Source: an uncultured Aquimarina sp. (GTDB lineage: Bacteria; Bacteroidota; Bacteroidia; Flavobacteriales; Flavobacteriaceae). From it: a stretch of DNA of 64,000 nucleotides. This document shows positions 314-35,835 of the stretch, in pieces (position 1 is the first letter of the stretch; the number at the start of each line of letters is the position of its first letter). The stretch spans positions 62,001 to 126,000 of the forward strand of contig CANMFM010000010.1 in the NCBI GenBank assembly GCA_947497175.1, written 5' to 3'. The translations under genes were made by a program, and so were the position numbers. The notes under the pieces are model-generated. The model saw nothing but the letters and a program-made list of their open reading frames with translations. It had not been told where the DNA came from and made no database searches.

Positions 314-1675
314 ATGCAAACAAAAAATATCGCTATAGTTGGAAGCGGACTCGTAGGTTCGTTATTAGCTCTTTATCTCAAAAAACGTGAGTATCAGGTT
401 ACTGTCTTTGATAGAAGACCTGATATACGCACTGTACAGTTTAGTGGGCGTTCTATTAATTTGGCAATGTCTGTGCGTGGCTGGAAAACACTAGATATAA
501 TCGGAATTGGGGATGAGGTTAGAAAATTGGCTATTCCGATGGATAAGCGAACCATACATCTAACAGGAGAACCGGTATACCATCAATATTATGGAAAAAA
601 AGGAGAAGCTATTTCTTCAATACCAAGGGGAGTTCTTAATAGAAGAATGATTACTCTGGCCGAAGAAGCAGGAGTGGTCTTTAGATTCAACGAAAAAGTT
701 TGGGATATCAACTTACCTGAAGCAAAAATCTATACTGGAGAAACTGAAAAAAGCGAATGGACCGAATATCAATATGATATGATTTTTGGTTGTGATGGCG
801 CTTTTTCGAGGGTAAGACATAAGATGCAACGAAGAAGTAGGTTTGATTATTCTCAAAAATTTTTAGATACGGGCTACAAGGAGTTAAGTATTCCTCCTAA
901 TGAAGATGGAACTCATAGATTAGATAAACATTCATTGCATATATGGCCCCGTGGTAAATTTATGCTTATTGCATTACCAAATTTGGACGGCAGTTTTACC
1001 TGTACCCTTTTTATGCCGCATGAAGGTAAAAACTCTTTTGAAGAGCTTACTAATGATGATGAGGTCATTAAATTTTGGGAAAAACATTTCCCGAACACGA
1101 TCAACTTAATGCCAACTTTACTCCACGATTTTAAAAATAATCCTAAAAGTGCTTTGGTGACCATGAAATGTTATCCATGGACCTATTGGGATAAGGTAGC
1201 TTTGGTGGGGGATTCTGCCCATGCTATCGTGCCTTTTTACGGTCAAGGCATGAACGCCGGATTTGAAGACATTTCTATTTTAGATGAAATCATAAATACG
1301 CATGGGGATGAGAACTGGCAAACAATTTTTGAAACCTATCAAGAGTCACGAAAACCTAATGCTGATGCCATAGCTGAACTTTCGTACCGTAATTTTATTG
1401 AAATGAGTAGTAAAACAGCTGATCCAGAGTTTATTTTAAGAAAAAAGATCGAAAAGCAGTTTTCTGAAAAATATCCTGATCAATGGTTGCCATTATACTC
1501 TAGAGTTACATTTAGTCATCAACCGTATGCTGAGGCTCTAAAAATCGGAGACAAGCAAGCTATGATCATGGATAGGGTGATGCAAATGGATAATATAGAA
1601 AACGTCTGGAATACCGAAGAGGTAGAACGCCATATTCTTGAACTTTTAGACGAAAAACTTCCTGTTAAGAATTAG
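314..1675 (+). CDS. kmo: kynurenine 3-monooxygenase
   Basis: FAD-dependent aromatic hydroxylase that converts L-kynurenine to 3-hydroxykynurenine in oxidative tryptophan degradation and de novo NAD synthesis. At 453 residues it is of normal length. The N-terminus carries the Rossmann motif VGSGLVGS (residues 9-16) for FAD, followed by the KMO-type stretch GRSINLAMS near residue 45. A second FAD motif, GDSAHAIVPFYGQGMNAG, lies near residue 297. The C-terminal part is mainly helical. It appears monocistronic; the next gene converges from the other strand. No other kynurenine-pathway gene is visible in the window, so the rest of the pathway must be encoded elsewhere. Confidence 0.95.
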   Translation: MQTKNIAIVGSGLVGSLLALYLKKREYQVTVFDRRPDIRTVQFSGRSINLAMSVRGWKTLDIIGIGDEVRKLAIPMDKRTIHLTGEPVYHQYYGKKGEAISSIPRGVLNRRMITLAEEAGVVFRFNEKVWDINLPEAKIYTGETEKSEWTEYQYDMIFGCDGAFSRVRHKMQRRSRFDYSQKFLDTGYKELSIPPNEDGTHRLDKHSLHIWPRGKFMLIALPNLDGSFTCTLFMPHEGKNSFEELTNDDEVIKFWEKHFPNTINLMPTLLHDFKNNPKSALVTMKCYPWTYWDKVALVGDSAHAIVPFYGQGMNAGFEDISILDEIINTHGDENWQTIFETYQESRKPNADAIAELSYRNFIEMSSKTADPEFILRKKIEKQFSEKYPDQWLPLYSRVTFSHQPYAEALKIGDKQAMIMDRVMQMDNIENVWNTEEVERHILELLDEKLPVKN

Positions 1676-11973: not shown

Positions 11974-12072
11974 ATGAATTCTATTTTTACTTTCAGAGGG
12001 CTTGACTTTAATGCAGTGGTTAGATTTTTGAAAGATCTTCCCGGGGCATCCATTTATGCAATGCGTAAATAA
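11974..12072 (+). CDS. short cationic peptide gene 1 (FLxxLPxA family)
   Basis: A 32-residue open frame that annotation by length would miss. The product starts MNSIFTF and ends with FLKDLPGAS followed by four residues and MRK. It shares spacing and residues with two other frames at 12432 and 12798: FL[KR]xLP[GS]A, then three residues, Ala, Ile/Met, one residue and a basic C-terminus. The LPGAS codons differ synonymously from copy 3 at four of five positions, which is strong evidence for translation. Net charge is positive and the middle is hydrophobic. A strong intrinsic terminator follows 45 bp later. Possible roles are signalling or antimicrobial peptide, small toxin, or precursor of a modified peptide; none can be chosen from sequence. 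Confidence 0.7.
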   Translation: MNSIFTFRGLDFNAVVRFLKDLPGASIYAMRK

Positions 12073-12431: not shown

Positions 12432-12536
12432 ATGATTATGAAGTTATTTTACGGTATTATGGTAATTGATATGAAAGCTTTAAAATCTTTTTTAAGACAA
12501 TTACCTTCGGCTTGCAGTAATGCAATTCACAGATAA
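12432..12536 (+). CDS. short cationic peptide gene 2 (FLxxLPxA family)
   Basis: A 34-residue frame, start MIMKLFYG, with the family pattern FLRQLPSAC, three residues, Ala-Ile, one residue, Arg at the very end. It aligns without gaps to peptide 3 and with a two-residue N-terminal difference to peptide 1. Both 34-mers begin M-x-M-x-LFY. An alternative start at the second Met (12438) would remove two residues. It has its own -7 box at 12404-12411. It is the only member with Cys (position 28) in place of the Ser that follows the LPxA motif. A stem-loop (TTTTAGA-gaaa-TCTAAAA, 12540-12557) follows the stop but lacks a T-run. Function unknown. Confidence 0.7.
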   Translation: MIMKLFYGIMVIDMKALKSFLRQLPSACSNAIHR

Positions 12537-12797: not shown

Positions 12798-12902
12798 ATG
12801 AATATGGGGCTATTTTACACGAAATTTAGATTAACTTTTAGAATTGTAATGGAATTTCTAAGAGAATTACCTGGGGCGTCAGGTCATGCTATCAATAGAT
12901 AG
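12798..12902 (+). CDS. short cationic peptide gene 3 (FLxxLPxA family)
   Basis: A 34-residue frame, start MNMGLFYT, with FLRELPGAS, three-residue spacing, Ala-Ile, one residue and C-terminal Arg. It shares LPGAS with peptide 1 but with different synonymous codons (TTA CCT GGG GCG TCA against CTT CCC GGG GCA TCC). It shares the M-x-M-x-LFY start with peptide 2. It has the best promoter of the three and ends 80 bp before a strong bidirectional terminator. The central part is rich in Phe, Arg and Thr; an amphipathic helix is plausible. No modification enzyme, exporter or immunity gene is recognisable beside the cluster. Confidence 0.72.
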   Translation: MNMGLFYTKFRLTFRIVMEFLRELPGASGHAINR

Positions 12903-32285: not shown

Positions 32286-34085
32286 ATGACAGCTATAAAA
32301 AACATTGCAATAATTGCACACGTAGATCACGGTAAAACTACGTTGGTAGATAAAATTATGTACCATTGCCAATTATTTCGTGAAAATGAAAATACAGGTG
32401 ATTTAATCCTTGATAATAATGACTTAGAGCGTGAAAGAGGTATTACCATTACTTCAAAAAATGTATCAGTTACGTATAAAGGGACTAAAATCAATATTAT
32501 CGATACTCCTGGTCACGCCGATTTTGGAGGAGAGGTAGAACGTGTCTTAAATATGGCAGATGGAGTATTACTTCTTGTAGATGCTTTTGAAGGACCCATG
32601 CCGCAAACACGTTTTGTACTTCAAAAAGCAATTGACCTTGGGTTAAAACCATGCGTTGTTGTTAATAAAGTCGATAAAGAAAACTGTACACCAGATGAAG
32701 TACATGAGAAAGTATTTGATCTTATGTTTGAGTTAGGAGCAGAAGAGTGGCAGTTAGATTTTCCAACAGTATATGGTTCTGCAAAGAACAATTGGATGAG
32801 CGATGATTGGAAAAACGAAACAGATAATATTGAACCATTATTAGATATGGTTATCGAGCATATTCCTTCTCCAAAAATAGAAGAAGGTACTCCTCAAATG
32901 TTAATAACATCCTTAGATTTTTCATCCTTTACAGGGCGTATCGCAATAGGTCGCTTACAAAGAGGGACCTTAACCGAAGGGATGCAGGTTTCACTGGTAA
33001 AACGCGACGGAACCGTTAAAAAATCAAAAATTAAAGAGCTTCATACTTTCGAAGGTTTAGGAAGAAGAAAAGTAGAAAAGGTTGAAGCTGGTGATATTTG
33101 TGCACTAGTAGGGCTTGAAGGTTTTGAAATCGGGGATACAGTGGCCGATATAGAAAATCCTGAAGGATTAAAAACAATTGCGATCGACGAGCCTACGATG
33201 AGCATGTTGTTTACCATTAATGACTCTCCTTTCTTTGGTAAAGATGGAAAATTTGTAACCTCAAGACATATCAAAGAGCGTTTAGCAAAAGAACTCGAAA
33301 AAAACCTAGCATTACGAGTAAATGAAACCGATAGTGCCGATAAGTTTTTAGTATTTGGTCGCGGTGTATTGCACCTGTCTGTATTGATAGAGACTATGCG
33401 TCGAGAAGGATATGAGTTACAAATAGGACAGCCCCAAGTGATCATCAAGGAGATAGATGGAGTAAAATGTGAACCTATAGAAGAACTAACCATAGATCTT
33501 CCCGAATCTGTTTCTGGAAAAGCTGTAGAAATGGTAACAATGCGTAAAGGAGAGATGCTGAGTATGGAAGCTAAAGGTGACCGTATGGTGTGTGAGTTTA
33601 TGATTCCGTCTAGAGGTATTATTGGTCTTCGTAACCAATTGCTTACTGCTACGGCTGGAGAAGCAATCATGGCGCACCGATTTAAAGAATATCAACCTTT
33701 AAAAGGCGATATTCCAGGGCGTATTAATGGTTCTCTTGTTTCTATGGAAAAAGGGTCCGCCATACCATATTCTATAGATAAATTACAAGATAGAGGAAAG
33801 TTTTTTGTAGATCCCGGAGAAGACATTTATGAAGGTCAGGTGATTGGTGAGAACTCTCGAGGTGATGATATGACGGTTAATATTACTAAAACAAAGAAAC
33901 TATCTAATGTACGTTCGTCAGGAGCTGATGATAAAGCTAAAATTGTACCTGCGATCAAGTTTTCTTTAGAGGAAGCTTTAGAGTATATACAAAAAGATGA
34001 ATATGTAGAAGTTACTCCTAATCACCTTAGGTTACGAAAAATATTTCTTACAGAAGTAGAGCGTAAACGAAACAAGATCGTGTAA
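32286..34085 (+). CDS. typA: translational GTPase TypA/BipA
   Basis: Ribosome-binding GTPase important for ribosome assembly and stress growth, 599 residues. G motifs are visible: G1 AHVDHGKTT (11-19), G2 region ERERGITI, G3 [12 protein letters not shown] and G4 [11 protein letters not shown]-like domains II, III and V follow, and the BipA-specific C-terminal domain ends in [14 protein letters not shown]. It is monocistronic with a good promoter box and a strong terminator. Confidence 0.96.
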
Positions 34086-34118: not shown

Positions 34119-34158
34119 AAACCCCTTAAGAAATCTCTTACTTAAGGGGTTTTATTTT
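34119..34158 (+). terminator. intrinsic terminator of typA
   Basis: A 12-bp perfect stem (AAACCCCTTAAG with complement) and 10-nt loop followed by a T-rich stretch. Confidence 0.88.
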
Positions 34159-34442
34159 GTAGGTATTATTTACCTAATACAGGGTCTTTAATCTATTCAG
34201 TATAACAACTGAAAAAAGTGGTCTATTTCCTCATTGCATATCTACTTGCGCCAGGCAAGTGCTTTAAAAAATTCCGTAATGCTTTGAGGTCTACGATCAT
34301 AATTCCGTAAAATAATTTCATAAGCCTATTTTTTAAATGATATAATTTTTTGTCTATTATAAGATACGACAGAATTTTTATCTAATTACAAATGAATCAA
34401 AGTTTTATAAAAAATTTAATACTTGTGTAAAGAGCCTGTAAA
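34159..34442. other. intergenic region between typA and the sRNA pair
   Basis: No gene seen. It contains a weak hairpin CTTGCgccaGGCAAG at 34246-34260. The rest is AT-rich. Confidence 0.45.
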
Positions 34443-34584
34443 ACAAAAAGTCCCGAGGGGGGAAACTCGGGACTTGTATCGATATTTTGGGGTATGATTT
34501 GGGGGCTAATCCAAATATCTTGGGGTAATTTTGGGGATTCTTTATTTTGGGGTAAAGTGTTTTGTACACTTCTTTAATTTTTAT
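34443..34584 (-). ncRNA. putative C-rich small RNA, copy 1
   Basis: A compact transcription unit on the minus strand of about 140 nt. The -7 box TATATTTG is at 34589-34596 with a TTG 18 bp upstream. After the start comes a stem-loop AAGTGT-N5-ACACTT. Five C-runs in the setting CCCCAAAAT or CCCCCAAAT follow, with a short CCAA/TTGG stem between them. It ends in a terminator: AGTCCCGAG/CTCGGGACT stem (34449-34474) and a T-run. A second copy lies 380 bp away. A translated frame exists but is just YPKI repeats from the C-rich motif, without a separate start. C-rich motifs could pair with G-rich ribosome-binding or leader sequences, as in UCCC-motif sRNAs of Firmicutes; this is inference. Confidence 0.68.
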
Positions 34585-34588
34585 AGTA

Positions 34589-34596
34589 CAAATATA
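34589..34596 (-). promoter_or_regulatory. -7 box of sRNA copy 1
   Basis: Minus-strand TATATTTG, with TTG 18 bp upstream (34615-34617). ACAAGTT at the -33 site is conserved in copy 2. Confidence 0.65.
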
Positions 34597-34822
34597 ATGG
34601 GTTATCTCGAACCGCAACTTGTAAAAATCAATAAATATTCGGTAAAAAGCATGTAATTATCGATAAAATGCATAAAAATCATGTTTTTTTAATTTTTAAC
34701 CTACAGTTTTCAATACATTGTTTGTAAATAAAAGAGATGATGTATACACAAGAAATATATTCTTTTTTGATATCTCATAATATATAAATAATTGATTGTA
34801 AGTAGAATAATTAAGAAGTGGT

Positions 34823-34964
34823 AAAAAAAATCCCGAGAGGGGGCTCGGGATTTATAGTCGATATTTTGGGGTATGATTTGGGGGGTAATCCAAATATTTT
34901 GGGGTAATGTTTGGGGTTCTCTTTATTTCGGGGCGAAGTGCTTATTACACTTCCGTAATTTTAT
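34823..34964 (-). ncRNA. putative C-rich small RNA, copy 2
   Basis: Paralogue of the RNA at 34443-34584 in direct tandem, about 380 bp upstream in the transcript sense. It keeps every element: -7 box TATATTTG (34969-34976), 5' stem-loop AAGTG-N7-CACTT, five C-runs, CCAAA/TTTGG internal stem and terminator stem AAATCCCGAG/CTCGGGATTT (34828-34853) with eight T. Differences fall mainly in loops and spacers, and the terminator stem changes on both sides (AGTCCCGAG to AATCCCGAG with the matching pairs), so it behaves as a structured RNA. Confidence 0.68.
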
Positions 34965-34968
34965 GGTA

Positions 34969-34976
34969 CAAATATA
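34969..34976 (-). promoter_or_regulatory. -7 box of sRNA copy 2
   Basis: Minus-strand TATATTTG, with ACAAGTT at the -33 position as in copy 1. Confidence 0.6.
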
Positions 34977-35151
34977 GGAAGTAGTTTACAGGTATAACTT
35001 GTAAAAATCAACAAATAATCGGTAAAAAACATTTTTTATCGATAAAAAACACAAAAAACAAGTATTATTTAAAATTTTGATGTGTTTTCCTATAGTTGAT
35101 TTGAGTTTTATAATATTGTGTAAAAGAGAAAGCTAAAAAAAGAGTATAAGA

Positions 35152-35835
35152 CTACCCTTTTCTTTGTACTACTTCAAAAACTTTATTTCCATCACATTTC
35201 AAAGTTTTTGAGGGATATTTAAGAAGTAACGCATAATCATGTGTGGCCATAAGGATGGTATTGCCATTCTTATTGATATCTTGTAGTACTTCCATAACTT
35301 CTACAGAGGTTTGAGGATCTAAATTTCCTGTGGGTTCGTCTGCTAATATTAACTCAGGATCGTTAAGTAAAGCTCGGGCTATAGCAATACGCTGTTGTTC
35401 TCCACCCGATAATTGATACGGAAACTTAAAACCCTTGGTTTTCATCCCTACTTTATCTAAAACATTATCAATCTTGTCACTCATTGCTATTTCGTCGGTC
35501 CAACCTGTAGCTTTAAGCACAAATAATAAATTGTCTTTTACGGTTCTATCATTGAGCAGCTTAAAATCCTGAAATACAATGCCCAATTTACGACGTAGAA
35601 AAGGGATTTGACTTTCTTGTAGCGTAGGTAAATCAAAGTCAACAATGCTTCCTTCTCCTTCTAACAGAGGAAGATCACCATATAGTGTTTTCATAAAGCT
35701 ACTTTTACCCGTACCTGTTTTACCAATAAGATAGACAAAATCGCCTTTGTTAACCTCTACATTAACATCAGATAGAATTAGGCTTTCGCGTTGATAAATT
35801 GAAGCATCTTTAAGGCTTAAAACCGTATTAGACAT
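35152..35835 (-). CDS. ftsE: FtsE-type ABC transporter ATP-binding protein
   Basis: ATPase of the FtsEX complex, which couples ATP use to cell-wall hydrolysis at division. At 227 residues it is of normal length. Walker [10 protein letters not shown] lies near residue 38, the signature [16 protein letters not shown] near 143, Walker [14 protein letters not shown] near 160 and the H-loop ATHDYALL near 198. FtsX is not adjacent, so identity rests on similarity to FtsE rather than to LolD or MacB. It follows the sRNA pair and has a 357-bp upstream region. Confidence 0.82.

Follow-up and report, generated by a model that had tools for sequence, protein, structure and literature searches.

A tandem pair of putative C-rich small RNA genes beside typA in Aquimarina

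What occupies the interval between typA and an ftsE-like gene in the genome of an uncultured Aquimarina sp.? In the window, the stretch of 64,000 nucleotides that was analysed here (assembly GCA_947497175.1, contig CANMFM010000010.1), this interval holds a tandem pair of predicted minus-strand genes of about 141 nt each. A sequence-only reading had taken them for two direct copies of a structured, C-rich small RNA (sRNA), and they are indeed direct copies, 379-381 nt apart. A promoter, C-rich sites and a terminator, kept together at one syntenic place, strongly support the reading as a pair of sRNA genes. The two tandem paralogues very probably represent a real sRNA gene family, whose transcription we infer. 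This candidate family matches no described family found in this analysis; a search of the whole window against Rfam (15) gave no match at gathering, and the six matches below gathering included no LhrC-type family. The 5' end of each RNA was placed 4 nt after the TATATTTG box, and the length of 141 nt depends on this placement; the 30 aligned RNAs range from 105 to 174 nt. The features are collected in Table 1.

Table 1. Features of the typA-ftsE interval in the window, and the second C-rich locus of the same genome.
Feature	Position	Strand	Remarks
typA	32286-34085	+	TIGR01394, E 1.5e-267
Copy A, intrinsic terminator with C-run in loop	34444..34475	-	predicted by folding and RNAalifold
Copy A, predicted RNA	34444..34584	-	about 141 nt
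Copy A, core: internal hairpin and UACCCCAAAAUAUCGA	34479..34521	-	
Copy A, 5' stem-loop	34554..34572	-	predicted by folding
Copy A, -7 promoter box TATATTTG	34589..34596	-	
Copy A, TTTTTACAAG box	34618..34627	-	
Copy A, upstream boxes TTTTATCGATA and TTTTACCGA	34636..34668	-	from the listing of genus promoters
Copy B, intrinsic terminator with C-run in loop	34824..34852	-	predicted by folding and RNAalifold
Copy B, predicted RNA	34824..34964	-	about 141 nt; start placed 4 nt past the -7 box
Copy B, core: internal hairpin and UACCCCAAAAUAUCGA	34858..34900	-	
Copy B, 5' stem-loop GAAGUGU/GCACUUC	34935..34953	-	well formed in the window and in A. mytili; in most other sequences weak or missing
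Copy B, -7 promoter box TATATTTG	34969..34976	-	consensus TAnnTTTG
Copy B, TTTTTACAAG box	34998..35007	-	at about -35; third in a series spaced by 20-21 bp
Copy B, upstream boxes TTTTATCGATA and TTTTACCGA	35018..35047	-	about 20 bp apart; sole match of the two-box pattern in the host genome
ftsE-like ATPase gene	35152-35835	-	TIGR02673 best match, 234 bits, below the model's cut-off of 265 bits
Second C-rich locus, in L158	oriented 1356-1499	-	around G000:C3 122505-122582

The promoter box proposed for each copy is present at both as TATATTTG, in keeping with the -7 consensus TAnnTTTG described for Bacteroidota in the available text of two studies (PMC9723704, PMC7366714). TACAAG stands upstream of 29 of the 30 aligned RNAs. 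A pattern that demanded TACAAG and the TTTG box, and left the upstream boxes free, picked 34 promoters in the genus; 31 of these have the TTTTACCGA box, and most have a TTTTATCGATA-like box 20-21 bp further up. This spacing recalls the direct repeats that are bound by LytTR regulators, and the spaced boxes would be the binding sites of a regulator that controls the sRNA promoter. In the host genome, the promoter pattern has three matches, the two copies and a further site (control 2), and the two-box pattern occurs once. Since both patterns are nearly confined to the sRNA copies, no shared regulon was found with the exact patterns.

A different view of the interval is that it holds a cis-acting or decayed element, with a role in typA or ftsE regulation, or else a short coding sequence, rather than a trans-acting RNA. 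Fixed synteny beside typA would suit this, as would a 70-aa open reading frame with a TTG start (34405-34617, minus) that crosses copy A. The evidence from the locus itself makes it improbable. Each copy has its own promoter and its own terminator; the copies are convergent with typA, whose own terminator-like inverted repeat lies at 34119-34152; and the RNA still stands beside typA in loci where ftsE is outside the flank examined (L026-L032). A stop-free frame runs through the body in 8 of the 30 aligned RNAs, but the frame is not constant. The protein-coding reading was rejected because the 30 RNAs have no conserved or common frame, and the earlier statement that the design is free of a coding frame stands, the 70-aa frame across copy A notwithstanding.

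The predicted sRNA pair is found in most of the Aquimarina genomes examined, at one chromosomal spot. BLASTN detects the RNA in 41 of 66 genomes of the genus, with two strong copies in the host genome, and all 30 loci fetched from the BLASTN matches (the window's own included) carry typA and/or ftsE alongside. The covariance search in relatives that the sequence-only reading had proposed as a check was run with model R1, which was built from 30 sequences and has seven pairs, all of them in the terminator. At E <= 0.01, R1 matches 47 of the 66 genomes, or 47 of the 58 of good quality; the weak matches include other loci. The 11 good-quality genomes that went unmatched lack both the promoter pattern and any CCCCAA cluster in the 1.5 kb downstream of typA. 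Six genomes with weak matches were read downstream of typA: four have promoter and C-run cluster (G029, G055, G021, G059), G043 has the cluster only, and G058 has neither.

A scan of named genomes for the exact signature returned 25 stretches, 22 of them from Aquimarina and one from a metagenome-assembled genome that matches the genus member G033; the remaining two are probably due to chance (L112 was inspected). Of 397 family genomes, 77 match R1 at E <= 0.01, and three of these are genus members. The best 27 loci from the 74 genomes outside the genus (L065-L091) were rejected as homologues, having neither a C-run cluster nor typA; unlike the Aquimarina RNA, none of the 27 is C-rich. In 13 genomes from other genera, the 1.5 kb that follow typA contain no such promoter, and G066 alone has a C4 pair there, which is unrelated. 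A pattern of three CCCCAA matches 99 of 299 family genomes; judging from the listed sequences, these matches are mostly coding or chance. Five of nine regions from other genera (L147, L148, L149, L150 and L155, out of L147-L155) have CCCCAA clusters in apparent leaders, some of which precede lipoprotein-like genes, as in a pair of congeneric species. In L147 the clusters are found some 1.2-1.5 kb past typA and on the strand of typA, unlike the Aquimarina RNA. A mobile origin was considered and rejected, as the signature gives no match in viral contigs. The two copies of A. mytili (L004) each keep their own terminator type, so that the duplication appears to predate the split of the two species.

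Folding of the whole RNAs gives z-scores of -5.61 for copy A and -4.75 for copy B, and the terminator proposed for each is strong in both. In the structure models the terminator is the sole stem that is clearly conserved with compensatory changes: RNAalifold, applied to the 30 RNAs, retains the terminator only, with two-sided changes at four of its seven pairs. The claim that stem bases change along with their partners is thus good for the terminator and fails for the 5' stem of the window copies, where the differences are one-sided G-U swaps. Nor is the 5' stem-loop, described earlier as conserved, strong in most of the genus. Both window copies and both A. mytili copies form it strongly; over the 30 sequences the mean z of this region is -0.6, and z < -1 is reached in just six (these four, L017 and L020), values that come from a region cut automatically and wrongly for a few rows, such as L007, L028 and L031. 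The internal TTTGG/CCAAA stem does pair, in 71.7% of cells among the 12 sequences that form an internal hairpin, but its two two-sided pairs are no more than shuffles give (mean 1.6). An alternative hairpin, UGAAUU/AAUUCA, occupies the same place, with 94.4% of cells paired and no two-sided change in the same 12 sequences. The loop of the internal hairpin shows AGCCCC or similar.

What is kept across the genus, apart from the terminator, is mainly in the primary sequence: the RCCCCAA sites and the 3' segment UACCCCAAAAUAUCGA. Comparison of the window with A. mytili gives an identity of 1.00 for the two 40-nt blocks containing this 3' part, whereas blocks in the spacer between the copies reach only 0.42-0.65. 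The five C-rich motifs claimed for each copy correspond to five C4 sites in each. CCCCAA itself occurs five times in the body of copy A and four times in that of copy B; for neither body did any of 20000 composition shuffles give as many. The 30 RNAs together have 106 C4 sites, with one to six per body (zero to five for CCCCAA). The last four Cs are preceded by A at 55 of the 106 sites, by G at 38, by C at 11 and by T at 2, and followed mostly by AAAA (49) or AAAT (18). The C4 sites are predicted to be unpaired with a score of 0.86, vs 0.57 at other body positions, which is partly trivial because G is scarce in the bodies.

The bodies as a whole are C-rich and G-poor (copy B has 30 C and 12 G), and the intervals between C-runs peak at 12 nt (20 of 76) and 19 nt (11 of 76). 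Such an RNA, with C-runs every 11-20 nt, could act as a decoy for Rho or as an antiterminator by occupying the primary RNA-binding site of Rho, for which a YC-spacing rule holds. We consider this very unlikely. The intervals are not phylogenetically independent, and Rho binding needs neither the exact RCCCCAA motif nor a purine before the C-run, which counts against a role of Rho here.

The C-rich RNA probably works as a multi-site regulatory RNA. Our tentative preference is for the RCCCCAA repeats acting as a multivalent decoy that titrates a trans-acting factor. The factor, most likely an RNA-binding protein, would recognise the same motif near the start codons of mRNAs, and the sites on the sRNA would bind it and titrate it away from a set of these. 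Action of this type has its model in the CsrB/RsmZ and CrcZ RNAs; in CsrB/RsmZ, GGA motifs in hairpin loops bind CsrA. The Aquimarina RNA resembles CsrB/RsmZ in repeating a short motif many times, in loops or single strands, and in having duplicated genes, and differs in that its motif is CCCC, not GGA, and its bodies are G-poor.

In favour of a decoy, the motif is short, repeated and variable in number, the C4 sites are predicted to be unpaired, the orthologues are syntenic, and leaders in the host genome are enriched in the motif. In the last 30 nt before 960 starts (leaders from 27.6% of the genome, with starts taken from the longest open reading frames), CCCCAAA is seen 10 times, vs 1.1, 1.6 and 2.9 expected from Markov models of order 1, 2 and 3. 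No other of the 35 C4A3 permutations is as common in these leaders, where the motif has the same sense as in the sRNA, and 7 of the 15 CCCCAA in the last 60 nt sit 10-19 nt from the start codon. An earlier sample of 372 genes had allowed no decision; the larger sample of 960 is enriched. Against a decoy, the enrichment is not replicated in G024, another Aquimarina with the sRNA (609 genes; 1 seen vs 0.56 expected, order 2), and over the whole host genome CCCCAAA at most 12 nt upstream of any ATG is as frequent as in the control (111 vs 108). Some orthologues also have very few C4 sites, namely only one or two in 8 of the 30 RNAs. Pairs of CCCCAA outside the sRNAs are near the control in the host genome (12 vs 8). 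An enrichment of signal peptides among the motif genes was examined and rejected (4 of 10 vs 249 of 960, P 0.25). The 15-mer TTCGCCCCAAAATAT, present in 4 of the 30 aligned sRNAs and absent from the window copies, also stands in one leader of the host genome (L373 minus, oriented 3328), whose gene begins with MNWIYDPWPWYV.

A close rival is multi-seed base pairing, in which the C-runs would pair with G-rich sites on a few target mRNAs, with UACCCCAAAAUAUCGA as the main seed, so that translation is blocked or stability changed. Bacterial sRNAs of such size mostly act by base pairing. Within the genus the 3' segment is conserved to a high degree, beyond the need of a short protein site, and this suits a pairing seed. 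Furthermore, the nearest design to the Aquimarina pair is LhrC of Listeria, whose genes lhrC1-4 stand in tandem. According to the available text of PMC4132741, LhrC is G-poor, is encoded in several copies, LhrC1-5, and presents C-runs in a loop, a single-stranded stretch and the terminator loop; its promoter region upstream of -53 responds to a regulator. Multi-copy genes and several C-rich sites in loops or single strands are shared by LhrC, the UCCC-type sRNAs and, by prediction, the Aquimarina RNA. Unlike LhrC, the latter is without an Rfam match, has upstream boxes 20-21 bp apart and belongs to a host whose leaders have few G-runs. The parallel with the UCCC-type sRNAs of Firmicutes drawn in the sequence-only reading is therefore apt for the design (copies, C-runs in loops or single strands, little G). 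It does not extend to the UCCC motif, since a purine precedes the C-run at 93 of 106 sites and T at 2.

The search for G-rich targets, also proposed at the outset, gave no clear excess of complementary sites. In the host genome TTTTGGGGT is found 111 times vs 82 in the reversed control, with at least four of the listed sites inside the sRNAs themselves. Over 37 genomes WATTTTGGGGTA is found 224 times vs 192, including the sRNAs' own sites, without which the totals are near the control; the counts are highest in G022 (17 vs 4) and G017 (12 vs 4). Among 70 complement-site loci inspected (some being duplicate places, and three the sRNA loci), there are four coding sequences and one leader (G018, G009) in which homologous genes from two genomes share the site. 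Such recurrence favours pairing, but within coding sequences it is expected from ordinary conservation, which leaves the one leader. The 960 leaders of the host genome have few G-runs, with two occurrences of TTTGGGG (0.64 expected, order 2), which also speaks against pairing. On account of the null result in G024 and the near-ATG counts at control level, we hold the decoy reading at a little short of an even chance and pairing only slightly lower.

The decoy reading also draws support from a second, unlinked locus in the host genome that resembles a C-rich RNA gene (a weak R1 match, E 8e-5). Orthologues of this locus occur in four other genomes (L362, L364, L368, L369), each sharing at least one homologous neighbour gene; one neighbour, on the downstream side, resembles CAAX protease genes. 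A TATTTTTG or TACTTTTG box upstream is followed by a hairpin and a terminator. The hairpin loops read UCCCC, CCCCC, UCCCCC or CCCCCA, and three of the sequences have folding z-scores of -3.3, -3.0 and -2.5. As the second locus presents its C-runs in hairpin loops, different RNAs share a C-rich element. This second locus of shared design is new here. Designs of C-runs plus terminator are rare in the host genome: of 613 terminator-like sites in 464 kb, five have two or more upstream C-runs, and three of these five are the window copies (one counted twice); the equivalent with G-runs numbers six. A third C-rich candidate (L367, G021:C14 78644-78740, minus) combines several C-runs with a terminator and turned up in G021 alone.

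A more far-reaching and rather doubtful proposal is that unlinked RNAs sharing loop-borne RCCCCAA are the Bacteroidota counterpart of Csr/Rsm or Crc. A new RNA-binding protein (or Rho) that recognises CCCCAAA at start codons would be titrated by these RNAs, which a dedicated regulator binding direct repeats would control. To our knowledge, few RNA-binding regulators have been described in Bacteroidota, where translation initiation depends little on Shine-Dalgarno pairing, and post-transcriptional regulation in the phylum is thinly explored. A duplicated C-rich sRNA, kept in most of the genus together with a highly conserved promoter, and a second locus of like design offer a defined bait for the partner factor and its regulon.

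At the level of the phylum, the nearest known RNAs are FopS/GibS and the Rfp sRNAs. The available text of PMC11697453 describes FopS/GibS of Bacteroides as a family of 14 paralogues with single-stranded regions and an intrinsic terminator, together with an RRM protein, RbpB. The Aquimarina RNAs are likewise paralogous sRNAs of Bacteroidota with, by prediction, single-stranded regions and an intrinsic terminator. They differ in number, with a tandem pair and one other locus vs 14 paralogues, and in their C-run repeats, which the same text does not describe for FopS. It states that the FopS structure was deposited in Rfam; the Aquimarina RNA is without a match at gathering in Rfam 15, a release that may not include the FopS model. 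Rfp18 of Flavobacterium psychrophilum is conserved across its genus, according to the available text of PMC9723704; it and the other Rfp RNAs are likewise sRNAs of Flavobacteriaceae, and were compared by description. In the literature surveyed, with subscription papers mostly outside its scope, neither a C-rich Bacteroidota sRNA of such design nor any Aquimarina sRNA was recognised, which agrees with the initial assertion that no RNA of this design was known from the phylum.

A family of microproteins of 32-34 aa (MKLFYGIMIVDLKALRNFLKHLPGASRYAMRK-like) has a member between the sRNAs and typA (34321-34223, minus), and at the same place in other Aquimarina. Two members were searched against Pfam, without a match, and against NCBIfam, where nothing passed the cut-off. 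Paralogues stand in a row near 12 kb of the window (11974-12072, 12432-12536 and 12798-12902, plus), and further ones occur in two other stretches of the host genome (L257, L160). Upstream of the microprotein, L009, L021, L061 and L103 have a TTGGCCCGATTACTG(T/C)A-like sequence, which resembles a sigma-54 promoter of the -24/-12 type.
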